From: Microcoleus sp. FACHB-61
GTDB lineage: Bacteria > Cyanobacteriota > Cyanobacteriia > Cyanobacteriales > Microcoleaceae
Assembly: GCA_014695295.1 (NCBI GenBank)
Contig: JACJNY010000055.1
Coordinates: 1-64,000 of the forward strand
Direction: 5' to 3'
Length of the DNA: 64,000 bases
A program made the translations under genes and the position numbers. Positions 41,269-54,842 of the stretch are shown piece by piece. Below the pieces are notes generated by a model. The model was not told the DNA's origin and made no database searches. It saw only the letters and a program-made list of their open reading frames with translations. The number at the start of each line of letters is the position of its first letter. Within the stretch, counting starts at the first letter, position 1.

Positions 41269-44200
41269 TTAGCGATCGCCCACTGCATCGCACAAATGTC
41301 TATCCTCCTCCTTCACATCGGCATTTGTTCGCAAGTAATCTCGCACGCGATCGCAACCATCAGCCAACAAATCCACTTTCAAAACTCGCTCCACATCCCA
41401 CAAAGTCAGCGTATTATCCTCACTCACAGAAGCCACAAATGACCCATCCCCACTATACACTACCCCCCGAATCGCCGCAGAGTTACCTCTGCTGAGCGTC
41501 GTTAATTCGGTACCGTCAAGCTTCCAAAACTTCAGCGTATTGTCTACACTACCAGAAGCAATAATATTACCATCCGGGCTAAACGCCACCCCCCATACCG
41601 CGGCCAGATGACCTTCCAGAGTTCTCAGTAACTTACCATCCACAGTCCAAAGCTTAATCGTATTGTCCCCGCTGCCAGAAGCCAGAAATTTACCGTCAGG
41701 GCTAAATGCCACCCTCCACACAGCAGCAGTATGAGCTTGAAAAGTTCTCACCAAAGTACCATCAAGCTTCCACAGCTTCACAGTACCATCCCCCCCTGCC
41801 GAGGCAATTAGCTGACCGTCAGGGCTAAATAACACCTGCCAAATAGGAGCATGATGTCCTGTCATAATAGTATGCAATAAAGTACCATCGGGCCGCCAAA
41901 GCTTGATAGTATTATCTTGACTTCCAGAAGCAAGAATTTGACCGTCAGGACTGAAAGCCAATGCAAAAACCGTAGTGTTATGACCTACCAAAGTTGCGAT
42001 CGCTTTTCCGTTTCGAGTCCAGATATTCACCTTATTATCAATTCTGCCAGAAGCAATTAACTTGCCATCGCCACTCATGGCAACAGCATAAATCGCAGCC
42101 TTTTCGAGATCGAAAGTCGCCAGCAATTTGCCTTGCCGACTCCAAAGCTTAGTCGTGCCATCCTCGCTGCCTGTAGCAATTGTAGAACTATCCGAACTCA
42201 GTGCGATCGCCCAAATCCCGGCTTTATGTGCAGTAATCATCGTCCGCAATGGGTTTTGACTCTGCCACAGCCGCACCGTATTTTCTGCACCCGCCGAAGC
42301 AATAAAACTGCCGTCTGGGCTCCAAGCTATCCCCCAAATCCCAGCATTGTGACCTCTCAATGTCGTCCATTCTGTTCCGTCAAGATTCCAGAGTTTTACA
42401 GTTTGATCGCGACTTGCAGAAGCAAGAGTCTGACCATCTGGACTGAAAACAACTTCGGAGACTACAGCAGAATGACCTTCAAGCGTTCTAAGCAAAGTAC
42501 CGTTTTTGTTCCAGAGTTTCACCGTTTTGTCTCCACTTGCTGAAGCCACAATCTGACCGTCTGGACTAAACGCTGCTGCAGATACCACAGAAGTATGACC
42601 CCGGAGAGTTCTTAACAGTTTGCCGTCTTTGTTCCAGAGTTTCACCGTTTTGTCTCCACTTGCCGTAACAATAGTCTGACCGTCTGGACTGAAAGCCACT
42701 GAGGTTACCCCAGCAGTATGACCCTGGAGAGTTCTTAACAGTTTGCCGTCTTTATTCCAGAGTTTCACCGTTTTGTCCATGCTGGCAGAGGCAATTGTTT
42801 GACCGTCGGGACTAAATGCCACTGTCCAGATACCAGCACTATGACCCTGAAAAGTTTTCAACAAAGTGCCGTTTCGCTGCCAAAGTTTTGCAGTTCCATC
42901 ATCACTTCCAGAAGCAATAAACTGACCGTCCGGGCTAAATTTTACAGACCGAACGATCGCCTGATGACCTTTAATTGTTGCTATTTCCGTTCCGTCCCGA
43001 CCCCAAACTTTAATAGTTTTATCCACACTTGTGGAGGCAATAAACTTACTGTCTGGACTAATGTGAATTCCTAAAGCTGCCATTTTATGTCCCGATAAAC
43101 GGTTGTATTCAACCCCTTCATAAACCGCTTGACGCAATACATCGATCACTTTATCTTCAATGTTTTTATCTTTATTGCTTAAGTTTTGTAGTCGGCGCTT
43201 AGCTTTAATTGCTTCTATTAGTGCATCCAATGGGCGATTAGAGTCAAACAGTCCCTCCGAGGAAGAAACCAGCGCTTCAATTTCACTCATCCGAGCTTCG
43301 CGCTCACTAATGACGGCTCGGCGATACTGAAAATAACTTGTTACTCCTAAAGCACCGGCAAGCAGCAGTGCAATACTAACAGAAAATAGTAAGCGCCTCT
43401 GTCGTTTCGCTGCTTTTTTTTCTTGAATTAATCGCATTTGTTCCTCGGCCAGTCGCGCTTCCACTTCTTTGGTGCGTTCTGCTTCTAAAGCTTGTTGAAC
43501 TTCTCGCCTATCTAGTTCGGCACTAGCAGCTAAGAACTGATAGTCAAGGTTACTCAAGCTTTTTTCCTGCGCCCAGATTTGACCATCTTTTAAGGCTTGT
43601 CCCCGCAAAAGTCGGGAAAAATCTGTTTGTTGTGAAGCAACCCAAGCATCGAAGGTTTGCGAGTAGGGGCGCAGTTGCCCTAATTGCTTCTCTACCCATT
43701 CGAGGTTAAAAACTTCAGCATAAACCCTGTTTCTCACCTGCAAATAACCATTGTTTTTGACAACTAATCCCGATAATAATAGTTCAATTTGTTCTGGTGA
43801 GTCATCAGTTGATACCCCTCCGGCTATTTGGCTAAAAGGTAGAAATCTTTCATTTCCTTGTAGGGGCAATTCTCCTGTAGTTGCCCTATAAAGATTTGGG
43901 TCAGGCACGGGATTGCTGGCCCTATAGTCCTCTTCAAAGCCCGACAATGAAACAGATCCGCTGGCTAAAAGGGGGTTAGATTGTAAAATTTGCTGGTAGA
44001 TGCCGAGTAATCTGCCCGCGCGTTGTTCGTTGCGAATAATCCGCTCCTTTATGGTTTTTAAATGTTCCGGCTCATCCTGAGATTCCCATTTATTAATGAT
44101 ATTTTCTCGCACTAAACGATCTACCCAAACCTCTTCTGTTCCTGCTGGGATTGTTACTACTTTTTGCGGTGTAGTTTGAGTTGCCATGTAGGCTAAATAG

Positions 44201-44952
44201 CACAGTTTTTGCGTCAGAAATGGCTGCCCAGAAGTCCAAGCCAATATCTGTTTGAGAATAGGTTGATAATTATTGACTGCACTTGCCAATCCCGCCGCTA
44301 ACGGCTGGGCTTCTTCTAGTTCAAAACCTCGTAAATTTATGGCTCGCCCAATATTAAAAGGAGTTCGTTTTTTATCAACAATTAAATCGCTAGGTGTTGC
44401 TACTCCAAATATTGCAAAAGTAATGCGATTATATTCTGGATTAATTGAGCGTTGATTATAGCAAAAGCGAATTAGGGCAAAAAAATCATCGACAGGGAAA
44501 TCTAGACTGAGAACACTGTCAATTTCATCAATCAATATAATGATTTTTTGGTCAAAAAACTTGACCAACAAAATATCTTCAATAAAATGACTCAATCTTT
44601 GCAGAAATGATAAATCTTCTTCATCACGCCACCAGGTTTTTAAGTTAACTTGCCCTAAAAGATTGAAGCCGCGCCACAGTTCCCCAATCATGCCTTTATA
44701 CCACTGTAAGGGAGTGATATTTTCGCTACCGATACGGGTCATGTCGATCGTGCTGCATTGAAAACCTTCGGCTTGCAGTCGGTGTAGGGTGCGGACTAAG
44801 AGAGAAGATTTGCCCATTTGTCGCGAGTTGAGGATGTAACAAAATTCACCAGCTTTTAAGGCTTCATAGAGTTCGGAATCTGCTTGTCTTACTACGTAGG
44901 TAGGGGCATCACTGGCGAGACTGCCTCCAATTTGGTATGTAACCTTGGTCAT
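41269..44952 (-). CDS. AAA-like domain / membrane / 14-WD40 protein, paralogue
   Basis: I chose ATG 44952 ([20 protein letters not shown]), which matches the paralogue's N-terminus; a TTG at 44994 would add 14 unrelated residues. The product has 1227 residues in the same order: AAA-like ATPase (Walker [10 protein letters not shown], Walker B ILIDEIDS), one membrane segment (about 517-541), 14 WD40 repeats (about 615-1177) and a tail [11 protein letters not shown]...DRHLCDAVG. Relative to its neighbour it carries an in-frame insertion of 52 residues before VSTDDSPEQ (43816-43980). No purine-rich ribosome binding site precedes ATG 44952; the upstream text is pyrimidine-rich. Role as for the paralogue, probably signal-dependent switching at the membrane. 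Confidence 0.85.
43816..43980 (-). repeat. in-frame 55-codon insertion of dispersed-repeat type DNA
   Basis: The paralogue at 37660 has only three codons here ([10 protein letters not shown]). The insert contains the inverted pair GGGCAA (43864-43869) and TTGCCC (43881-43886) within a GTAGGGGCAA...TTGCCCTATA context, which is common in cyanobacterial intergenic repeats. The frame is kept. Confidence 0.75.
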
Positions 44953-45039
44953 AAGGAAGAAGGAAGAAGGCAATAAAAGCAAGGGTTTCAGCAATTAAGA
45001 ATATCCTAACTGTCGGGGCGGTTGCTATAACACCCCGCT

Positions 45040-46371
45040 CTAAATAAAGTTTTGCGAACCAAAGTATAAGCGGTATAACTCGCAGCTTAGAGTACAGCGA
45101 TTGTTATCGATATGAATCAGCCCCATACTAATTAATTTAGAAGCTACTATCGGATCTAATTCCACGCCCCGCTCAGATTTTACCACTTGTTTAAGTGCAA
45201 CCGCAAGTTCGGGATACTCTTGCAATGTCACCCAAAAGCTCCGCAAATAATCTTTATAAATTCCTGCTATTGTGGGAGCTTCTTGTAGTAGCTGATCTAC
45301 CGTTAAACTGTTTTGACAGAGGTGGTAAAGAGCTAGCCGCACCAGATAAGGATGTCCCCCCACCATTGCCATTAGTCGCTCGGCATCAGGGCTATCTGTC
45401 CAATCCAGTCCGTGACGCTGCGCTAAAGCAAGTATCTGCTCTTCTGTGAAATAGGGCAATTGCAGCGGCAAACCGACATTAAAAGGCGATTCAGTAAGCT
45501 TTAAAGGAATATAAATTTCTGTGGAGTGAAGAACGATTAACCGCAGTTTTTCCAGGGATTCAATCCGTTTTGCTTCTTCATGCCAGCTTCGCAGCAGTGG
45601 CAAAAATTCTCTGGCAATTTTTGGATACTCAAAAATCCTGTTGACTTCATTTAAAGCTAAGACAAGAGGATTCTTTATTTCTGCTAATACATATTGTTGC
45701 AAATAGATGGTACAGCTTACTTTGCTACCCATATCTTCATCCCAATAATCATCTAATTGAGGTGGCAATCCTAGATAACGGCTGATGTTGGCACAAAACC
45801 ACCGTAAAAATTTATCGAGGTTGTCTAAAACAGCTTCCTCGGCTTGCTGAAAATCTAAACTTACAGTTCGATAGCCAAGAGAACTCGCGCGAGCTAAAAT
45901 CCGTAGCAGGAGCGAACTTTTACCCATCTTCCTGGGAGCTTTAACCCGCAGAACACTTCCAGGTTTGGCAATCTCTTGATACGCAAGTTCTTCAATTAGC
46001 GTGTGAGGGATATAAAATGGTGAACCGAGGGGCACGGGAGAGCCGGGATATTCTAAAGGTTTTGCTAGGCATTGGCTGCGGGTGAATTCTTGAATTAATT
46101 CTCGTTCCTCTACTGTCAGGGAACGTGATTCTAGAGAAGAGCGAAAATTTGATTTGCTAATAGGTTTTTGCAAGATTTCCGAGAGAGATTGCCACAAACC
46201 GGAGGCGATGTTTCTCAGGTAATGCTCTCCGTAATGAGAGGCAGATGCGATACTTGTATAAGTCTTTCCTTCCCAAACTTGGCGAAGTATAGTTTCTTGT
46301 ACTGGATGTAACTCTTTTTGCGATCGGACACGAGTTAGCTGTAGTACCTCATCTATTGTCATAATTGGCAA
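45040..46371 (-). CDS. HTH (vWA-MoxR-associated type) / AAA-like ATPase protein
   Basis: A 443-residue soluble protein. The first ~85 residues (TIDEVLQLTRVRSQKELHPVQETILRQVWEGKTYTSIASASHY...) match the N-terminal helix-turn-helix domain seen in vWA-MoxR-associated proteins, in which a LuxR-like HTH precedes an effector or ATPase. Residues ~110-440 form an AAA-like ATPase (Walker A APRKMGKSSLL near 143-153, Walker B-like PLVLALNEVNRIF). The Walker B acidic pair is altered (LNEVN). It lies upstream of the two AAA-like/WD40 genes in the same direction, with ~90 bp between. It could be a regulator or partner of them; this is inference. No transmembrane segment. Confidence 0.7.
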   Translation of the reverse strand: MPIMTIDEVLQLTRVRSQKELHPVQETILRQVWEGKTYTSIASASHYGEHYLRNIASGLWQSLSEILQKPISKSNFRSSLESRSLTVEERELIQEFTRSQCLAKPLEYPGSPVPLGSPFYIPHTLIEELAYQEIAKPGSVLRVKAPRKMGKSSLLLRILARASSLGYRTVSLDFQQAEEAVLDNLDKFLRWFCANISRYLGLPPQLDDYWDEDMGSKVSCTIYLQQYVLAEIKNPLVLALNEVNRIFEYPKIAREFLPLLRSWHEEAKRIESLEKLRLIVLHSTEIYIPLKLTESPFNVGLPLQLPYFTEEQILALAQRHGLDWTDSPDAERLMAMVGGHPYLVRLALYHLCQNSLTVDQLLQEAPTIAGIYKDYLRSFWVTLQEYPELAVALKQVVKSERGVELDPIVASKLISMGLIHIDNNRCTLSCELYRLYFGSQNFI

Positions 46372-46856
46372 TTAGCGCGTAAGGGTATCGTTGATATTAT
46401 CACTTATGATTGACTGTAAAGCCGATCGCCTGTTTGATTGCGACGCGAGCCTATAGCGAGATTTATCAGGGGATAACAGGTCAAATGCGTTAAATCTCAC
46501 CGCAGCGCACCAATATCAATAAAGGATTCACTGGTCACTGAGCGCCATAACCCAATTTCAAGAGGTGCTGGCGGGGTTCCCTTTCAGCTAGCAGTGCTCA
46601 GTTTTTCTCGCTCGTTGACCAAAATGTCATGCAGGTGTCACAGTTGGCCGTGAAGCCACAATTAAAGATGTGACAGTTGACCTTGGTAAAGCTTAGTAGA
46701 TTGATGTTAATTTAATTAAATGTAGTTTCGTCTCGCTGCATATACTCATCACAAGTGTTAAGTCCAAAAGCATAATTCTTCTTTTTGTGCTAGCCGATCT
46801 TTTTATTGTCCTGTAATCCTGTCTTAAAAAAATTAGCCACTAACCGAGTTGAATTA
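46372..46856. other. divergent promoter region
   Basis: About 485 bp between the minus-strand HTH/AAA gene and the plus-strand kinase gene. It contains AT-rich stretches and two TGACAGTTG/GTCACAGTTGG-like boxes (about 46634-46648 and 46669-46682), which could be operator repeats. No gene is seen. Confidence 0.4.
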
Positions 46857-48437
46857 ATGCCAATGGTTCATAAAATGTTCCCTAATTATTTTATTCCTCA
46901 CGGTCATTGCTACTTGTGGAAGCCTGGATTAGTGGGGCTGCACATTTTGTCCGATGCTTTGATTGCCGTCGCTTATTTTTTGATACCTATCACGCTGATT
47001 TATATTGTCAAGAAGCGGAAAGATGTGCCGTTTGACTGGGTTTTCATGTTGTTTGGCTCTTTTATTATCTGCTGCGGTATTACCCATCTTATGGAAATAT
47101 GGACGCTGTGGCATCCTAATTATTGGTTCTCTGGTTTCCTTAAAGGGATTACGGCGCTGATTTCGCTATGTACAGCAGCAGTGCTGGTGGAACTAATTCC
47201 AAAAATCTTGGCTATCCCCAGTCCCGATCAATTGGCGGCGGCAAATAGGGCTTTAAAAAATGAGATTGGCGATCGCAAACAAGCTCAAGAAGCACTCTCG
47301 AAATTAATGCTAGAATTGGAAAAACGGGTGATGGAGAGGACGATCGCTTTAAAATCAACCAATGAACTTTTGCAACAGGAAAATCGCGATCGCTCCTTGG
47401 CGGAAAATTCATTGCGGCATTCGGAAGCTAAACTGCTTGAACGAACTCAGCAGCTTGAGGAAACTCTGCAACAGCTCAAAGACGCCCAAACTCAACTCGT
47501 GCAAACTGAAAAAATGTCTTCTTTGGGACAAATGGTAGCTGGCGTTGCTCACGAAATCAATAACCCTGTTAACTTCATTTATGGCAATCTGATTCCGGCT
47601 GAGGAATACATTAAAGATATTTTGGAATTGATTAAGGCTTATCAAGTTTATTACCCCACTCCGGCGCCGGAAATTGCAGACAAGATTCACACTATCGAAC
47701 TCGATTTTATTTTAAAAGACCTGCAAAAACTTTTTGGTTCTATCAAGATTGGAGCAGAGCGGATTAGGGAGATTGTTAAGTCTTTACGAACTTTCTCCCG
47801 ATTAGACGAAGCCGATATGAAAAAGATCAATATCCATGAAGGTGTCGATAGCACTTTAATGATTTTGCAGCACCGCTTGAAAGAACAACCAAACCGTCCG
47901 CCTATCCAAGTGATTAAAGAGTATGGAAATTTGCCACTATTGGAATGCTATGCGGGACAGCTTAACCAAGTATTTATGAACATTTTGTCTAATGCTATTG
48001 ATGCTTTAGAACAGAGTGTAGCGCAGGGGGATTTCACCACAGGCTATTGGGAAAATAATTTTCATGACTACTTACAAAACACCTATTGCCCACTGCTAAA
48101 AATTCGCATTCGCACGCTTTTAGTTGATGGCAAGTGGGTGCAGATTCACATTGCTGATAATGGTACTGGCATAGATTATGACGCGATCGCTAAAATTTAC
48201 GATCCGTTTTATACGACGAAACCTATCGGTGCTGGTACCGGGCTGGGTTTGGCGATTTCTTATCAGATTATTCAAGCCCATCAAGGTTATTTGCGCTGCA
48301 CTTCCGAGGTTGGGAGAGGTACTGAGTTTATCATTGAAATTCCTTTGCGATCGTCCCTGTGCGATTGCAACCAGGCCCAGAAGCAAGCTGTTATGAACAA
48401 GTTTTGTTTAGTGGGTAATAACTCATTCCGAATCTAG
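46857..48437 (+). CDS. ethylene-receptor-type sensor histidine kinase
   Basis: ATG 46857 is preferred to TTG 46806; it gives 526 residues and keeps the distance to the HGHCYLW motif similar to the next gene. The N-terminal three-helix membrane domain (about 20-130) is of the ETR1 type. Helix 2 has FIICCGITHLMEIWT with Cys73 and His77, at the spacing of the copper-binding Cys65/His69 of plant ETR1. A coiled coil (about 135-225) leads to HisKA with His232 (VAHEINNP). The HATPase carries NILSNAIDA, DNGTGID and GTGLGLAI. There is no receiver, so phosphate must pass to a separate REC. The next gene on the strand is 80 bp away and carries the same sensor domain. Confidence 0.88.
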   Translation: MPMVHKMFPNYFIPHGHCYLWKPGLVGLHILSDALIAVAYFLIPITLIYIVKKRKDVPFDWVFMLFGSFIICCGITHLMEIWTLWHPNYWFSGFLKGITALISLCTAAVLVELIPKILAIPSPDQLAAANRALKNEIGDRKQAQEALSKLMLELEKRVMERTIALKSTNELLQQENRDRSLAENSLRHSEAKLLERTQQLEETLQQLKDAQTQLVQTEKMSSLGQMVAGVAHEINNPVNFIYGNLIPAEEYIKDILELIKAYQVYYPTPAPEIADKIHTIELDFILKDLQKLFGSIKIGAERIREIVKSLRTFSRLDEADMKKINIHEGVDSTLMILQHRLKEQPNRPPIQVIKEYGNLPLLECYAGQLNQVFMNILSNAIDALEQSVAQGDFTTGYWENNFHDYLQNTYCPLLKIRIRTLLVDGKWVQIHIADNGTGIDYDAIAKIYDPFYTTKPIGAGTGLGLAISYQIIQAHQGYLRCTSEVGRGTEFIIEIPLRSSLCDCNQAQKQAVMNKFCLVGNNSFRI

Positions 48438-48517
48438 CTACAATTTTGAATCTATTTTCCTTTTTTGCCTAGCTTAGGCATCGTTCACATCAACATGATC
48501 TGCAAATAATAAATATT

Positions 48518-51500
48518 ATGTGGGAATCACTCAAAAATATCTTTTCCCCAACTCAGTATATGCCTCACGGTCACTGCTATCTGTGGCAAACGCCTTTAGT
48601 GTGGCTGCACGTAACAGGGGACTTCTTAATTGCGATCGCCTACTATTCAATTCCGGCGATGCTGATTTATTTTATCCTCAAGCGGCGCGATGTCCCTTTT
48701 TTAGGAATATTCGCTTTATTTGGTGCATTTATTATTCTCTGCGGCACGGGTCACTTACTAGAAATTTGGACGTTGTGGCATTCCGCTTATTGGCTGTCGG
48801 GGATTGAAAAAGGAATTACTGCACTGGTTTCCTGCTACACAGCAGGCTCGATGGTAACACTATTGCCACAGTTTCTATCTTTAAAAACCCCACAAGAATT
48901 AGAGGCACTAAATCGCAAGTTGGAGAGTGAAATTGCTGTGCGTGAAGATGCACAATTAGCCTTGCGCTACGCTTATGATGACTTAGATATTAAAGTCCAA
49001 GAGCGTACCGCAGAGTTGACAAAAATAAACGGTTATTTAGAAGCAGAAATTCGAGAAAGAATAGCCGCTGAATCCACTTTGCGCGAACGAGAAGCTAGGT
49101 TAACAGAACAACAAAATGGCTTGCTAGAATTAGCCAAAACTTCTAGTATCTACGAGGGAAATATCAGCGAGGCCTTGAGAGAGATTACACAAATGGCAAC
49201 CCGTACTCTGAATGTTGAGCGGGCAAGTATTTGGTTTTATCAGCAAGATAAATCCGCCATGTGCTGTGCCGATGTTTACGAACTGACGCCCAATCAACAC
49301 AGCGGGGGTACAAAACTGAAAGTTGCTGAATATCCTAGCTATTTCCAAGCTTTGAATACAGAACAGGTGATCGCAGTGGTTGATGCCACAACCGATCCGC
49401 GCACCCTAGAATTTAGCGAATCTTATTTGAGGCCTTTAAACATCTCGTCGATGCTAGATGTTCCTATTACCCATCAAGGACAAATTGCGGGTGTAATTTG
49501 TTTAGAACATCAGGGAAAGCTGAGGAATTGGACGCTCGACGAACAAAGCTTCGCTAGCTATGTGGCCCAGATCGCAGCTTTAGCAATGGAAGCCCGCGAT
49601 CGCAAGCAAGCCGAGTTAAAATTGCGTTCAGTCACCGAACGCTTGCAATATTTACTGGCGACTACTCCGGCGGTGATTTTTAGCTGCAAATTAGGGGGAA
49701 ATTATGATGTAACATTTGTCAGCGATAATGTTGTTTCAATGATTGGTTACGAAGCCCGAGAATTGGTTGATGGTTCCTTTGATTGGCATAGCCTGGTTCA
49801 TCCAGAAGATCGAGAGATTGTTGCTACTTCATACGCTCAGATATTGGAAAAAGAAGCGATTTCCTACGAATACCGCGAACGGCACAAAGACGGTAGTTAT
49901 CGCTGGATATACGATGAGCTTAAGTTAGTCAAAGATGCTGCTGGCATACCTGTGGAGTGCGTTGGTTATGGAGTAGATATTACTGCTCGCAAACAGGCGG
50001 AACTAGCGTTGCAGCAGCAACTAAAAAGGGAGCGGCTCGTGAATTCCATTCAAGAGCGAATTCGTTCCTCTCTTAACCTAGAAGAAGTGCTGACAATGGC
50101 TGTGGAAGAAGTCCGCCAGTTTTTGTCAACAGACAGGACTATTATTTACCGCTTTAACCCTGATTGGAGTGGATTGGTAGCCGTCGAGTCGGTAGCCGTC
50201 GGTACGATGCCAATTTTGGGAATTGACATTAACGACTCTTGCTTTCGAGAAGGCTACATTTCTTTTTACGAGCAGGGAAACATTCGCGCGATTGACAATA
50301 TTTATACGGCAGGTATTTCAGAGTGCCATATTAATTTACTGAGCGGTTTGGAAGTTAAAGCTAACCTCGTGGTTCCCCTTTTGCAAGGTGAAAAATTGTG
50401 GGGGCTACTCATTGCTCATCACTGCCGCAGTCCAAGACATTGGAACTCTTCTGAGATAGAATCTCTCAAGCAAATTTCCGTGCAGCTAGCAATTGCCATC
50501 CAGCAATGCACCCTTTTTGAACAAGCCAAAACAGAAATTGCCGAACGCAAATTGGCAGAAACAGCATTACAAAAAGCTGTCGTAGCTGCTGATACAGCTA
50601 ACCGCGCCAAGAGCGAATTTCTTTCTTCTATGAGCCACGAATTGCGGACTCCCCTAAATGCCATTCTCGGATTTAGTCAGGTGATGGTGCGCGATTTATC
50701 TCTCAACAATCAACACCAGCAGCACCTAGAAATTATTAATCGCGCCGGCGAACACTTGCTTTCGCTAATTAATGACATTTTGGAAATGTCCAAAATTGAA
50801 GCTGGCAGAACTCAGCTTAATGAAAGCAGTTTTAATTTAATGCGCTTGCTAAAAACCTTAGAAGAAATGTTTCGATTAAAAGCTAAATCTAAGAAATTGC
50901 AGCTAAATTTGGAAGTGGGTGACGGTGTACCGCAGTTTGTTAGTGGAGATGAAGGTAAATTGCGCCAAATTTTGATTAATCTTGTAGGAAATGCGATCAA
51001 GTTTACAGAGATGGGTAGCGTTACTTTGCGAGTTAACAAGAAGGTAGAAGAAAGTTTGGGGGCTGAAAATGCAGAGTTTTCGGACACACCAACAAAACTT
51101 GCCGGCGCGGGTTCTGAACATTCCGAAAGCTTAGCGGTTGAAACCGCAGCTATACAAAAAAAACCCGGATGGTGCACTGGTTTTCATCAGTCCGAAAGCT
51201 TGGGGGACTGTGATTGTGTAGACGCGAATGACCTTCGCCCGGAATTCTTACGCCTTGAGTTTGAAATTGAAGATACTGGCCTTGGCATTGCCGCAGAAGA
51301 GATGAATAAGTTATTTGAACCATTTGAGCAAACAAAAACAGGTCAAAAATCTCAACAGGGGACTGGATTAGGTTTACCAATTAGCCGCAAATTTGTACAA
51401 ATGATGGGAGGAGATATTACTGTCAGCAGTACACCTGAGTTGGGAAGTAAGTTTGTATTTGATATTAAAATCAAGCTTGCCACTCCCACCGAGATTAAAA

Positions 51501-52216
51501 TTCTTAAACCGCAGAAAAAAGTAATTGGTTTAGCACCGAATCAACCAGAATACCGGATTTTGGTTGTTGACGATCGCGCCGATAATTGCCTAGTCATAGA
51601 GAGATTATTGTCACCACTAGGCATCCTCGTGCGAGAAGCTAGAGATGGTCAAGAAGCTATTGCTGTATGGGAGGATTGGCAACCGCACCTGATCTGGATG
51701 GATATGCAGATGCCTGTCATGAATGGCTATGAAGCCACCAGAAAAATTAAAGATCATCCTCTCGGAAAACAAACTGTAATAGTTGCTCTTACTGCTAGCG
51801 CTTTTGAAGAGGAACGACAAACTATTTTAGCAGCAGGCTGCGATGATTTCATGCGTAAACCCTTCGAGGCAAATATATTATTTGCGAAGATGGAAGAATT
51901 TTTAGGAGTGCGCTACATTTACGAGGAATCTGTGGATGCACAAGTAGAAAATGAAAGCGACAGTAGGGAAGTGACCAGCAATCAATCTGTAGAATCACAA
52001 ATCTGTCAAATGCCTCTTGAGTGGGTCGAGAAGATATCTCAGGCTGCTCATGAATGTTGCGACAATAAAATTCTCAAGTTGCTTGAGGAATTGCCTAGAG
52101 AATTTGCTTTAGCCGCAGAAGTTTTAACTACTTTAGTGCAGGATTTCCTGTTTGACGATATTATCGATCTAGCGCAATCGGCAGTTACGGCGGTGAGAAT
52201 GCCAGTTCCCAACTAA
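48518..52216 (+). CDS. ethylene-receptor-type hybrid kinase with cyanobacteriochrome GAF (SynEtr1/UirS-like)
   Basis: A 1232-residue protein. The ETR1-type membrane domain (about 15-125) has FIILCGTGHLLEIWT with Cys75 and His79. Then follow a coiled coil, GAF1 (about 205-365), PAS/PAC (375-500), GAF2 (520-680), HisKA with His707 (SHELRTP), HATPase, a REC with Asp1062 (WMDMQMP) and a helical tail. GAF2 reads as a cyanobacteriochrome: a canonical bilin Cys603 in ECHINLL followed by KANLVVPLLQGEKLWGLLIAHHC, plus a second Cys575 in DSCF, the DXCF motif of UV/violet-blue sensing types. This pairing of ethylene domain and CBCR recalls Synechocystis SynEtr1/UirS; the C-terminal REC is extra. An odd ~65-residue insertion splits the HATPase (about 51045-51248). 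Confidence 0.88.
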   Translation: MWESLKNIFSPTQYMPHGHCYLWQTPLVWLHVTGDFLIAIAYYSIPAMLIYFILKRRDVPFLGIFALFGAFIILCGTGHLLEIWTLWHSAYWLSGIEKGITALVSCYTAGSMVTLLPQFLSLKTPQELEALNRKLESEIAVREDAQLALRYAYDDLDIKVQERTAELTKINGYLEAEIRERIAAESTLREREARLTEQQNGLLELAKTSSIYEGNISEALREITQMATRTLNVERASIWFYQQDKSAMCCADVYELTPNQHSGGTKLKVAEYPSYFQALNTEQVIAVVDATTDPRTLEFSESYLRPLNISSMLDVPITHQGQIAGVICLEHQGKLRNWTLDEQSFASYVAQIAALAMEARDRKQAELKLRSVTERLQYLLATTPAVIFSCKLGGNYDVTFVSDNVVSMIGYEARELVDGSFDWHSLVHPEDREIVATSYAQILEKEAISYEYRERHKDGSYRWIYDELKLVKDAAGIPVECVGYGVDITARKQAELALQQQLKRERLVNSIQERIRSSLNLEEVLTMAVEEVRQFLSTDRTIIYRFNPDWSGLVAVESVAVGTMPILGIDINDSCFREGYISFYEQGNIRAIDNIYTAGISECHINLLSGLEVKANLVVPLLQGEKLWGLLIAHHCRSPRHWNSSEIESLKQISVQLAIAIQQCTLFEQAKTEIAERKLAETALQKAVVAADTANRAKSEFLSSMSHELRTPLNAILGFSQVMVRDLSLNNQHQQHLEIINRAGEHLLSLINDILEMSKIEAGRTQLNESSFNLMRLLKTLEEMFRLKAKSKKLQLNLEVGDGVPQFVSGDEGKLRQILINLVGNAIKFTEMGSVTLRVNKKVEESLGAENAEFSDTPTKLAGAGSEHSESLAVETAAIQKKPGWCTGFHQSESLGDCDCVDANDLRPEFLRLEFEIEDTGLGIAAEEMNKLFEPFEQTKTGQKSQQGTGLGLPISRKFVQMMGGDITVSSTPELGSKFVFDIKIKLATPTEIKILKPQKKVIGLAPNQPEYRILVVDDRADNCLVIERLLSPLGILVREARDGQEAIAVWEDWQPHLIWMDMQMPVMNGYEATRKIKDHPLGKQTVIVALTASAFEEERQTILAAGCDDFMRKPFEANILFAKMEEFLGVRYIYEESVDAQVENESDSREVTSNQSVESQICQMPLEWVEKISQAAHECCDNKILKLLEELPREFALAAEVLTTLVQDFLFDDIIDLAQSAVTAVRMPVPN
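51045..51248 (+). repeat. repeat-derived in-frame insertion inside HATPase domain
   Basis: It lies between the strand VTLRVN and LEFEIEDTGLGI, which are normally joined by a short loop. It contains GCGGTTGAAACCGC (51134-51147), the same palindrome as in the MITE-like element at 36896-36909. It also carries two TCCGAAAGCTT copies (about 51122 and 51190). The frame stays open. Confidence 0.7.
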
Positions 52217-52379
52217 TCTCAACTTAGGAGGATTGCCTATTGAAACAAGACTTAACATTAATCCCCTACAACCTGTCCCTGCCCTCTATTGGTAGGAGAA
52301 AAAATCTGATTTTATACTGTTTTGTTTTTGGGGAGAGCGAATTATTAAGTGTTAATATCTTTGATCTTAGGAAACTACC

Positions 52380-53537
52380 GTGAGCTCTCGCATGGACAGC
52401 AATCAATCTCCTACAACTCAAGCCAACATTTTAGTAGTTGATGATAAGCCCGATAACGTGCGGCTTTTATCTACAATCTTGACGGAACAAGGGTATCAGG
52501 TTCGTAAAGCGCTGAACGGGCAAAGGGCGATCGCTACAGTGCTGGAGTTTCCGCCGACTCTAATTTTGCTGGACGTGATGATGCCAGAGATGAATGGATA
52601 TGAGGTATGTGCAAAGTTGAAAGCTTCTCCAAAAACCAGTTCCATTCCCGTGATTTTCTTAAGCGCCTTAGATGACGTTTTAGATAAGGTGAAAGCCTTT
52701 GAGGTGGGAGCGGTTGACTATATTACTAAACCTTTTCACGGTAAAGAAGTATTGGCACGAGTGGCAAATCAGTTAACAATTCAAAGTCAACAACAGTTAC
52801 TTCAAGAGCACGCGAAGCAATTAAAAGAACTTGTCGAACGTTTGCAAAACGAAATTAAAGAACGGCAGGAGGTGGAGCTAGCTTTACGGGTTGCTCAAAA
52901 AAAGTCCGATCAATTATTGCTGAATATTTTACCAGCAGCGATTGTTGAAAATTTGAAAAAGGGCCAGGGTTCTCCTGCCCAGAGGTTTGAGTCAGCAACA
53001 GTTCTCTTTGCCGATATTGTCGATTTTACGTCTATTTCTGCTAGAGTTTTACCTCTAGAATTGGTAAAGGTACTGAACGAGATTTTTTCAAGGTTTGACC
53101 AATTAACAGAAAAACACGGTTTGGAAAAAATTAAAACAATTGGAGATGCTTATATGGTAGCGGGGGGGTTGCCTGTGCCGAGGGCAGATCATGCAGAAGC
53201 GATCGCGAATATGGCTTTGGATATGCAGGAAGCGATCGCTGATTTTCAAACCGACAGAGGCGAACCCTTTCAAATTCGGATTGGCATTCATACAGGGCCA
53301 GTAGTTGCTGGCGTAATTGGCACTAAAAAATTTATTTATGACTTGTGGGGAGATACGGTTAATGTTGCTTCTCGGATGGAATGTCAAGGATTACCGGGGT
53401 ATATTCAAGTTACTACTGCTATTTATGAGCTGTTAAAAGATCGGTATGTATTTGAGGAAAGAGGTTCGATCGCGGTTAAAGGTAAAGGAGAGATGATCGT
53501 CTATTGGTTAAAAGCTAAAAAAGTTAGTTCAAGCTAA
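52380..53537 (+). CDS. REC-class III adenylate cyclase response regulator
   Basis: A 385-residue protein with GTG start (AGGAAACTACCGTG); ATG 52392 is an alternative. The receiver domain (about 15-135) has a VVDDKPDN acidic pocket, phospho-acceptor Asp65 (LLDVMMP) and the TKPF Lys. A coiled coil (140-180) is followed by a class III cyclase domain (about 190-380). This has FADIVDFT with two metal Asp, KIKTIGDAYM with the adenine-selecting Lys, and YDLWGDTVNVASRME with the matching Asp and the transition-state Asn/Arg. All catalytic residues are present, so cAMP formation is likely and would be controlled by phosphorylation. It follows the two ethylene-receptor-type kinases on the same strand (163 bp), making them likely phosphodonors. 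Confidence 0.9.
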   Translation: MSSRMDSNQSPTTQANILVVDDKPDNVRLLSTILTEQGYQVRKALNGQRAIATVLEFPPTLILLDVMMPEMNGYEVCAKLKASPKTSSIPVIFLSALDDVLDKVKAFEVGAVDYITKPFHGKEVLARVANQLTIQSQQQLLQEHAKQLKELVERLQNEIKERQEVELALRVAQKKSDQLLLNILPAAIVENLKKGQGSPAQRFESATVLFADIVDFTSISARVLPLELVKVLNEIFSRFDQLTEKHGLEKIKTIGDAYMVAGGLPVPRADHAEAIANMALDMQEAIADFQTDRGEPFQIRIGIHTGPVVAGVIGTKKFIYDLWGDTVNVASRMECQGLPGYIQVTTAIYELLKDRYVFEERGSIAVKGKGEMIVYWLKAKKVSSS

Positions 53538-53561: not shown

Positions 53562-54842
53562 TTAAAAAATGAAAATAATTTGCAGTTTCACTTTTAAATT
53601 TTCGCGTACAATCTCTATGCGATCGATAAACTCTCGAAAATAGAACCGGCGTTCTGATTCTGATAAATCTAGCCAAAATTGGGGAAGAGAAACGGTTTGA
53701 GCAGTTTCTCGCAAATTCACTGGCGGCAGTTGCGCTAATTTGCTTTGCAGCTCCGCTATTTCCGTGCGGATTTTGTAGGATCTCAACTCTGCCGTTTCTG
53801 TGTCTAAAATGCCGCTTTCAATCAGGGCGGGAAGTTGCTCTAGGATTTCTTGTTTCGATGCGATCGCCGATTCAATTCCTGCTTTAATTCCGCTGATATC
53901 CGGCATTTGCAGCGCGGCGACAGCAGCGGGCAAATCCCGACAGATTCCTTCAATGGTTGATTGCAATATTTCTTGGTAGGGAAAGCCACTGCATTTAGGC
54001 TGAGACAGACAGTTAATGGGCCGCAAATAAAGGTATTCTCTATCTTTGCGGTAGGAGGTGACTTTGGCAACTGTCATGGCCGATTTGCATTCCGCACAAA
54101 TTGCTAAACCGGCCAGGGAACGGGGGGCGCTGGCGCTGCGGGGAGAAAGGCGGCGGTTGCGGCGCAGCAATCTGTCTATTTGGGCGGCTTCTTCTCGGGA
54201 AATAATCGGGACGTGGGTGTTAGAAATTACTTGGCTGTTTTGATATTCCAAATCGCCTCGGTAGGCGGGATTTGTCAGCCAGCGGCGGCCTGTGCTGACG
54301 GAGATTTTTTTGCTGTATTTCTTTGCTAAATACCGCACGGAACCGCGCAAAGAACCGTAGATTAGAAAGTGGTCAAAAAAGTCTTTGACGGCGGCGGCGG
54401 CCGATCGATCGATCGTGTAGCGCTCTTTGCCGCGCCGGTAGCCGTAGGGAGCTTTACCCGGTGGAATCCGCGATTTGATGCGGTTGCGGGCGTGTCCTTT
54501 GCGAATGCTCCGGCTGTGTTGGCTGCGCTGGAGCTCTGCGAGGATTTGCAGCAAGTTTCTGCGGTTTCGCGGTTCTGTTTCTGCTTGTACGATGATTTCG
54601 ACGCCGAGGTTTTCGAGTTGGGCGAGGTGCGAACACACTTGCTGTACTGTGTCGCCGAGTTCTTCAAAGCGCTGAATTAACAGGTATTTGACTGGTTCTG
54701 TTTGGCAGTCTTTTAGGAGTTGTTGCAGTTGTTGCCGCCCTCCTAAGTCTTGATATATTCGATCGACCTCTTGGCCCCAAATTTCGGCGGCCGGCGCTGG
54801 TTCTAGCAGCGGTTCGCTGTAAGAGTAGGCAATGATTTTCAT
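53562..54842 (-). CDS. XisF-like large serine recombinase
   Basis: A 426-residue protein resembling the cyanobacterial fdxN-element recombinase XisF group. The N-terminal resolvase fold is divergent (MKIIAYSYSEPLLE; one of the Ser in YSYS would be the nucleophile, followed by YLLIQRFEELGD for the usual RLSRLGR). A recombinase domain has GKAPYGYRRGK (about 128-138). A zinc-ribbon region has paired Cys (LAICAECKSAM..., CLSQPKCSGF). A C-terminal coiled coil follows. It would catalyse site-specific excision or inversion. No att-like direct repeats or element borders were seen around it. It ends 24 bp from the convergent cyclase gene and is probably co-transcribed with the VOC gene 3 bp upstream. 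Confidence 0.75.
   Translation of the reverse strand: MKIIAYSYSEPLLEPAPAAEIWGQEVDRIYQDLGGRQQLQQLLKDCQTEPVKYLLIQRFEELGDTVQQVCSHLAQLENLGVEIIVQAETEPRNRRNLLQILAELQRSQHSRSIRKGHARNRIKSRIPPGKAPYGYRRGKERYTIDRSAAAAVKDFFDHFLIYGSLRGSVRYLAKKYSKKISVSTGRRWLTNPAYRGDLEYQNSQVISNTHVPIISREEAAQIDRLLRRNRRLSPRSASAPRSLAGLAICAECKSAMTVAKVTSYRKDREYLYLRPINCLSQPKCSGFPYQEILQSTIEGICRDLPAAVAALQMPDISGIKAGIESAIASKQEILEQLPALIESGILDTETAELRSYKIRTEIAELQSKLAQLPPVNLRETAQTVSLPQFWLDLSESERRFYFREFIDRIEIVRENLKVKLQIIFIF

Follow-up and report, generated by a model that had tools for sequence, protein, structure and literature searches.

A conserved ETR1-type kinase and receiver-cyclase locus in Microcoleus as a possible gas and light input to cyclic AMP

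Two histidine kinases of the ethylene-receptor (ETR1) type and an adenylate cyclase lie next to one another in a 64,000-nucleotide stretch of DNA from Microcoleus sp. FACHB-61 (assembly GCA_014695295.1, contig JACJNY010000055.1, positions 1 to 64,000), which we refer to as the window. The three genes, here called HK1, HHK2 and REC-AC (a receiver, REC, fused to an adenylate cyclase, AC), are co-directional on the forward strand at 46857-53537, with intergenic gaps of 80 and 163 bp as counted from the listed starts. The presence of ETR1-type kinases, one of which also has a photoreceptor-type domain, beside a switchable cyclase suggests that gas and light signals may both adjust cyclic AMP (cAMP). 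Judged by comparison of related loci, the conserved core is HHK2 together with REC-AC, and HK1 is an older accessory.

Genes and signature residues

The genes, their strand and their gaps agree with a preliminary description of this DNA, as do its three domain assignments: an ETR1-type kinase without a receiver, an ETR1-type hybrid kinase with a cyanobacteriochrome, and a receiver joined to a class III cyclase with all catalytic residues. By Pfam, HK1 consists of ETR1_N (5.4e-42), HisKA (7.9e-08) and HATPase (3.5e-22) with no receiver, and HHK2 of ETR1_N (1.6e-38), GAF (two stretches), PAS_3, HisKA, HATPase and Response_reg; the ETR1_N bit scores are 142.4 and 131.3, respectively, against a curated cut-off of 27. 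The counterparts of all eight ETR1 residues considered are intact in both proteins (Table 1). Four of these (Y32, I35, P36 and I62) we take to be ethylene- or copper-binding residues. The I62 equivalent is invariant in an 11-row alignment of HK1 (I70) and is Ile in all 24 hybrid kinases that have an ETR1 domain (I72 in HHK2); the equivalents of D25, Y32, I35, C65, H69 and K91 are likewise kept in 24 of 24, and that of P36 in 23. C65, whose counterparts are C73 in HK1 and C75 in HHK2, and D25 are required for ethylene binding by AtETR1, and roles for C65, D25, H69 and K91 are given in the same paper (PMC11819568). A search for a solved structure of the ETR1 domain returned only a light-harvesting protein at E 0.045, and none of the 25 best NCBIfam models for each trio protein exceeded its cut-off.

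In HHK2, the second GAF resembles cyanobacteriochromes of known structure (best 6oap, 1.1e-48; also 3w2z and 4glq) and has the dual-cysteine signature of the DXCF class, D573-S-C575-F plus Cys603-His604. Cys575, Cys603 and His604 are kept in all 26 hybrid kinases that adjoin REC-AC orthologues. Because the chromophore of UirS, a light and ethylene receptor kinase of Synechocystis, is dually linked (PMC5812497), the HHK2 domain may belong to the broad class of UirS; its colours are not readable from sequence, and a UV-A input does not follow from the DXCF signature. Elsewhere in HHK2, a stretch of the HATPase region (residues 847-909; 51056-51244) differs in length from one to another of the 26 orthologous loci; within residues 800-915, relatives lack from 0 to 60 residues, at 841-910.

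REC-AC matches Response_reg (4.6e-29) and Guanylate_cyc (4.7e-68). Its receiver has the acidic pair D21/D22, D65, S95 and K117, and alignment to mammalian AC9 identifies D212, K252, D256, D321, N328 and R332 in the cyclase domain, which make up a complete class III set, its Lys/Asp pair being of the ATP type; presumably these supply the two metal-binding Asp, the ATP-selecting Lys/Asp and the transition-state Asn/Arg. The receiver and cyclase residues are kept in all 27 orthologues, except for two positions lost to a contig end in one of them (L195). The gene probably begins at ATG 52392, which is kept in all seven aligned relatives that reach the site (window included), as compared with six of eight for GTG 52380, and this start gives a gap of 175 bp after HHK2. 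Of two possible HK1 starts, ATG 46863 is kept in 5/5 aligned relatives and ATG 46857 in 4/5.

Table 1. Features of the trio and of a separate ETR1 kinase set. Positions are those of the window unless a locus precedes them; handles in L, G and f denote loci, genomes and families.
Feature	Position	Strand	Remarks
HK1	46857..48437	+	sensor histidine kinase of the ETR1 type, lacking a receiver; ATG 46863 is a possible start
HK1 ethylene-receptor-type domain (PF25487)	46929..47216	+	equivalents of ETR1 D25, Y32, I35, P36, I62, C65, H69, K91
HHK2	48518..52216	+	ETR1_N-GAF-PAS-cyanobacteriochrome GAF-HisKA-HATPase-REC hybrid kinase, 1232 aa
HHK2 ethylene-receptor-type domain	48596..48883	+	D35, Y42, I45, P46, I72, C75, H79, K98 correspond to the ETR1 ligand/copper residues
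HHK2 cyanobacteriochrome GAF	50075..50500	+	DXCF Cys575, canonical Cys603-His604
HHK2 histidine kinase core	50606..51469	+	HisKA H707, HATPase_c
HHK2 own receiver	51557..51889	+	D1062
HHK2 C-terminal tail	51905..52213	+	no built-in histidine phosphotransfer (Hpt) step seen
REC-AC	52380..53537	+	receiver fused to class III adenylate cyclase; start probably ATG 52392
REC-AC receiver	52428-52763	+	phospho-acceptor D65
REC-AC class III adenylate cyclase domain	52977-53513	+	full catalytic residue set
Direct repeat TGTSACAGTTGRC	46636-46648 and 46669-46681	+	upstream of HK1; two copies 33 bp apart
Separate ETR1 kinase - REC - REC-AC set	L230:7664-11111, L223:4040-7499, L224:1153-4917		compact

Conservation of the pair and the fate of the first kinase

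REC-AC was searched for in 388 genomes (window included), with orthologues defined by at least 75% identity. Matches at E 1e-120 or better occur in 47 genomes, and 27 places, the window among them, reach the identity threshold; 26 of these have upstream sequence, the exception being L195, which starts at a contig edge. In every one of the 26, a same-strand hybrid kinase with a dual-cysteine cyanobacteriochrome lies directly upstream. Twenty-four of the kinases combine ETR1 with the cyanobacteriochrome, one has MHYT and the cyanobacteriochrome (L051), and in one the ETR1 part is broken (L194). The gap to REC-AC, counted from the first possible start codon, ranges from -7 to 183 bp and is at most 60 bp in 17 of the 26. 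Within the window's genus, 22 of the 29 genomes searched carry an orthologue; by name, the relatives include Microcoleus vaginatus HSN003, Microcoleus sp. FACHB-DQ6, Lyngbya sp. CCAP 1446/10 and Tychonema sp. LEGE 06208, which are presumed to be of the same genus; of these, M. vaginatus HSN003 carries HK1. Domains in these neighbourhoods were called with small hidden Markov models built from window and locus sequences rather than with Pfam; the models miss some domains, such as the HisKA of HK1 and the REC of L104, which Pfam finds.

Absence of the trio elsewhere formed one part of the grounds on which the preliminary description would have given up a relay. It is not what was found: the same gene order is seen within the genus, in a neighbouring genus of the family and in two more families of the order, one of which has MHYT in the second kinase, and with other domains in Planktothrix. 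Conservation of this kind argues against a chance adjacency of the trio; the window alone would not suffice, because the 6.62-Mb host genome holds 35 matches to PF00211 and seven ETR1_N genes. Selection on the three genes is mostly purifying. Compared pairwise (NG86) with L047, L048 and L049, the window has ratios of nonsynonymous to synonymous substitution (dN/dS) of 0.21-0.28 for HK1, 0.16-0.33 for HHK2 and 0.17-0.35 for REC-AC; against L053, dS exceeds 1.3. Beyond the orthologues, 20 more distant REC-AC proteins (54-67% identity; L196-L215) have a hybrid kinase directly upstream in 11 cases, in six of them (L202-L207) with an overlap of 8 bp, and only the kinase of L198 has an ETR1 domain. 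A search of a plasmid collection gave 80 records, all below 60% identity, with 39-47% among the 20 listed.

HK1 has a less constant history. As a query against 195 genomes of the order, it gave 245 loose first-look candidates in its own genome and, outside that genome, 10 full-length relatives at 64-92% identity. The trio stands in the same order in six of these (G166, G033, G109, G056, G165, G136), and a hybrid kinase comes after HK1 in eight; in another (G008), a contig end interrupts the start of an MHYT. The 12 best named HK1 loci (L066-L077), which share some genomes with the set of 10, have the order HK1, hybrid kinase, REC-AC in 10 (the cyclase of L071 being cut by a contig end); L074 has cyclic di-GMP (c-di-GMP) outputs and L076 ends at a contig edge. 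The 26 REC-AC loci comprise 13 with an intact HK1, five in which it is broken or a remnant (L185, L186, L188, L189, L194), six without it (L182, L183, L190-L193) and two that could not be assessed (L181, L184). In L185, where HK1 lies at a contig end as two pieces in different reading frames, the break could stem from a sequencing error; the remnant call in L194 rests on one 26-residue piece. Because remnants exist and HK1 occurs in other families, we infer that HK1 was lost rather than gained late. The trio is thus not an indivisible unit; with HK1 missing or broken in 11 of the 24 assessable neighbourhoods, the constant unit is the hybrid kinase and REC-AC.

This pattern also fits an alternative, in our judgment an unlikely one, in which HHK2 alone serves the cyclase, and the neighbouring HK1 either has a different target, such as the receiver of HHK2 or a regulator encoded elsewhere, or is being lost. 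The hybrid kinase and REC-AC persist at those 11 loci, and at L055 HK1 is found without either partner. However, HK1 is intact in the 13 loci just mentioned and under purifying selection in the four compared, and it stays before a hybrid kinase across families f1, f20 and f32 and in Planktothrix, even where MHYT has replaced ETR1.

Exchanged sensors, exchanged messengers and the surroundings of the trio

Five HK1-bearing relatives have an MHYT sensor in the second gene. In Planktothrix paucivesiculata (L077), the order is HK1, an MHYT-cyanobacteriochrome hybrid kinase, REC-PAS-GAF-AC and a second small cyclase. The REC-AC of this locus falls outside the supported clade of trio cyclases in a tree that took in 8 of the 27 trio-type cyclases, so that the order has outlived, or re-acquired, its cyclase. 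In Oscillatoria princeps, HK1 and an MHYT multi-sensor hybrid kinase are followed by REC-GGDEF-EAL and REC-GGDEF genes, with overlaps of 4-7 bp. The MHYT domain of CoxC is copper-dependent and responsive to CO (PMC11347149), and ETR1 uses copper (PMC11819568); the exchange of ETR1 for MHYT would therefore trade one membrane copper gas sensor for another.

It is conceivable, if rather improbable, that the ETR1 domains themselves sense something other than ethylene, such as copper, redox state or another small gas, in which case the locus would be a copper-dependent gas or redox input to cAMP. The position of MHYT in the second kinase of L051 and L077, where ETR1 would otherwise stand, is in keeping with this idea, given the behaviour of MHYT in CoxC (PMC11347149). 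On the other hand, all of the ETR1 residues tested are kept in the window's proteins, including the counterparts of the C65 and D25 that AtETR1 needs for binding (PMC11819568), and both the domain of SynEtr1 and Geitlerinema cells bind ethylene (PMC6682694).

ETR1 kinases are paired with cyclases in other ways as well. A separate set, in families f8, f22 and f32 (L104/L223, L106/L224, L230), consists of an ETR1 kinase, a single receiver and REC-GAF-AC, with a GAF that Pfam detects in L104 and L106 only. At each of the two junctions in L230, the genes overlap by 4 bp. The kinases of the set are 33-34% identical to HK1 and 75-79% to each other, and its cyclases form a clade of their own (100/98) apart from the trio clade (100/98). 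In L125, a Coleofasciculus metagenome assembly, an ETR1 hybrid kinase abuts REC-GAF-PAS-AC, whose cyclase falls into an unresolved group of the tree with those of the separate set and others. Among 80 named loci, an AC open reading frame (ORF) is present within the stretch covered in 12, namely nine of the trio layout (Planktothrix included) and L104, L106 and L125.

Across the order, second messengers are a common output of ETR1 genes, and cAMP is a rarer branch than c-di-GMP. Of 62 sampled ETR1 ORFs, three are followed in a co-directional run by AC and nine by REC-GGDEF(-EAL), eight are fused to GGDEF-EAL, and 42 have none of these. The sample covers 60 stretches (59 of the first 65 by E-value plus one own-genome row out of order) and over-represents strong matches; outputs can be missed in it, because several stretches end soon after the ETR1 gene (L226, L250, the first ORF of L230). 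The eight fusions (L220, L221, L226, L242, L247, L256, L268, L269) are putative one-component gas-to-c-di-GMP receptors. None of the other five ETR1 genes of the window's genome has an AC directly downstream on the same strand. On contig C68 of that genome (L266:1472-11477), an ETR1 kinase with a REC and two REC-kinases lies about 4 kb from a convergent AC-REC-kinase group.

Support for the relay of the preliminary description is therefore partial. The adjacency is conserved, and both the output enzyme and the gas sensor carried by the second kinase can be exchanged, so that ethylene to cAMP would be one setting of a wider gas- and light-to-second-messenger layout.

No terminator-like site was found in either intergenic gap. 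Promoter-like sites are about as frequent in the region as chance predicts (16 found, 13.3 expected); one of them, at 52289-52318, lies in the gap before REC-AC. The TGTSACAGTTGRC repeat is largely conserved in four aligned relatives and is a possible control element upstream of HK1; two matches, with one mismatch allowed, arose in 2 of 100 shuffles for this pattern, which was picked after being seen. A second word, AAGTGTTAA, considered as common to the regions upstream of HK1 and REC-AC, was rejected, since its two matches were equalled or exceeded in 19 of 100 shuffles. The window contains no CRP-type site (TGTGA-N6-TCACA, one mismatch allowed; 1.83 expected). The host genome has 12 matches to cyclic-nucleotide-binding domains, 11 of them over the cut-off, which are possible cAMP effectors. 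Upstream and divergent from the trio (41269-46371) are an AAA_35 gene and an AAA/WD40-like gene; a near-full AAA_35 match adjoins HK1 in 11 of 14 HK1-bearing stretches, also outside the genus, with fragments in L053. Downstream and convergent with REC-AC is an XisF-like serine recombinase (53562-54842), kept in L046 and L047.

A possible route to cAMP and its known relatives

The reading we prefer, with a probability of roughly 0.58, is that the locus serves as a gas- and light-gated two-component input to cAMP, in which HHK2, and HK1 where it is kept, would phosphorylate the receiver of the cyclase; phosphotransfer and its direction, the ligand, the colour and a shared transcript are what we infer from the sequence. 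Autophosphorylation of HHK2, a membrane hybrid kinase, would be set jointly by the copper-site ETR1 domain, for which ethylene is the likeliest ligand, and by the dual-cysteine cyanobacteriochrome. The kinase core would then pass phosphate directly to the receiver of REC-AC, thereby changing cAMP synthesis, and the receiver of HHK2 itself would be a competing sink, a branch or a brake. Direct transfer is the simplest reading because no Hpt was found in HHK2: three scanned tails gave no match and eleven aligned tails share no conserved His, a separate Hpt gene elsewhere not having been sought. Where kept, HK1 would be a second ETR1-type donor, and a straightforward one since it lacks a receiver, feeding the same cyclase receiver. 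Since HK1 is retained next to MHYT-type kinases in which an ETR1 domain was not detected, it more likely acts on a shared receiver than by ETR1-mediated pairing, and an HK1-HHK2 heterodimer joined through these domains is unlikely as the main mode. By analogy with AphC-CyaC and SynEtr1, cAMP would be expected to fall with ethylene and to rise under one light colour; there is indirect evidence that ethylene lowers the kinase activity of SynEtr1 (PMC11819568). More tentatively, the locus could be a modular copper-gas and light unit that writes to an exchangeable second messenger, with two ETR1-type receptors of different design and a short-wavelength-type (DXCF) cyanobacteriochrome acting as a coincidence detector on one cyclase in Microcoleus. 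Relatives would exchange the gas sensor (ETR1 or MHYT) and the messenger (cAMP or c-di-GMP) but retain the first kinase. On this view, the ethylene-receptor homologues of filamentous cyanobacteria would often be controllers of second messengers rather than of transcription.

Several observations weigh against the preferred reading. How HHK2 would reach the cyclase receiver is not obvious, given that it carries a receiver itself and that no Hpt was detected in it. Of the 24 assessable loci, 11 have HK1 missing or broken, and some loci that do carry HK1 lack the cyclase: Oscillatoria princeps (G104; L074:11757-20982) has c-di-GMP enzymes in its place, G152 (L052) has HK1 and an MHYT hybrid kinase with no cyclase within 6.6 kb and the next gene on the opposite strand, and in G003 (L055) neither a hybrid kinase nor a cyclase was found beside HK1. 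The orthologues come mostly from one genus and are not independent, and 9 of the 20 distant REC-AC proteins have no hybrid kinase directly upstream (L196, L199, L200, L201 and L212-L215 have none there; in L209 it is one gene further up). In the window's subgroup, the gap between HHK2 and REC-AC has widened to 163-175 bp and contains a TATACT-like stretch, conserved among the closest relatives, that could be a separate promoter. Against L047, finally, dN/dS is near one in the tail of HHK2 (0.128/0.141) and in its receiver (0.022/0.027, on few changes).

A further alternative, that the genes are neighbours without a shared pathway, the order being a relic and another kinase serving the cyclase, can draw on the many other potential partners in the genome (the 245 loose HK1 candidates and 35 PF00211 matches) but is very doubtful, given that all 26 loci, with cyclases 75-92% identical, keep the adjacency, that the gap is at most 60 bp in 17 of them, and that an ETR1 kinase-cyclase pairing recurs in a separate cyclase clade.

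A conserved ETR1 kinase and receiver-cyclase locus offers a concrete, measurable output (cAMP) and a testable convergence of gas and light on one enzyme, and the loci with an exchanged sensor or messenger are naturally occurring variants in which to study how specificity is maintained. Microcoleus is filamentous and gliding and forms mats and crusts, and a role of cAMP in controlling motility or rewetting could be tested in this group.

The outputs known for non-plant ethylene receptors are few, and include UirR and CsiR1 in Synechocystis and a predicted stand-alone receiver in Azospirillum (PMC5812497, PMC11819568). SynEtr1/UirS (slr1212), with UirR and LsiR in Synechocystis PCC 6803, resembles HHK2 in joining ETR1, a cyanobacteriochrome and a histidine kinase, in acting through response regulators and in placing light and ethylene on one receptor (PMC5812497, PMC6682694). 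Its outputs are a transcription factor (UirR), a small RNA (CsiR1) and a PATAN-CheY regulator, whereas the Microcoleus locus has a cAMP-making enzyme; in addition, HHK2 has an extra receiver and the locus a second ETR1 kinase.

CyaC of Anabaena PCC 7120 and Spirulina is a fusion of receiver, kinase, receiver and cyclase. In Anabaena PCC 7120, the photoreceptor kinase AphC is thought to phosphorylate and activate CyaC; unlike HHK2, AphC is a phytochrome-like kinase, and no gas sensor is mentioned for it (PMC4284465). On pSymB of Sinorhizobium meliloti, a receiver-cyclase 39% identical to REC-AC stands beside a gene annotated as a histidine kinase dimerisation domain and two response-regulator genes; compared by annotation only, this cluster has no ETR1 or cyanobacteriochrome domain named in it.

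The closest published locus that we found is that of GeiEtr2 in Geitlerinema PCC 7105, an ETR1-PAS-GAF-kinase-receiver hybrid grouped with a gene for a nucleotide-cyclase domain (PMC6682694). The grouped gene encodes a diguanylate cyclase, which makes c-di-GMP, rather than an adenylate cyclase, and the only other gene named there as grouped with GeiEtr2 is one for a starch phosphorylase (PMC6682694). Among the titles listed in searches of the open-licence PMC literature, subscription papers lying outside that scope, none describes an ETR1 kinase beside an adenylate cyclase. Every part of the Microcoleus locus is of a known kind, and what by that measure appears to be new is a conserved locus of an ETR1/cyanobacteriochrome kinase and an adenylate cyclase, together with its loss-prone first kinase and its swaps of sensor and messenger.

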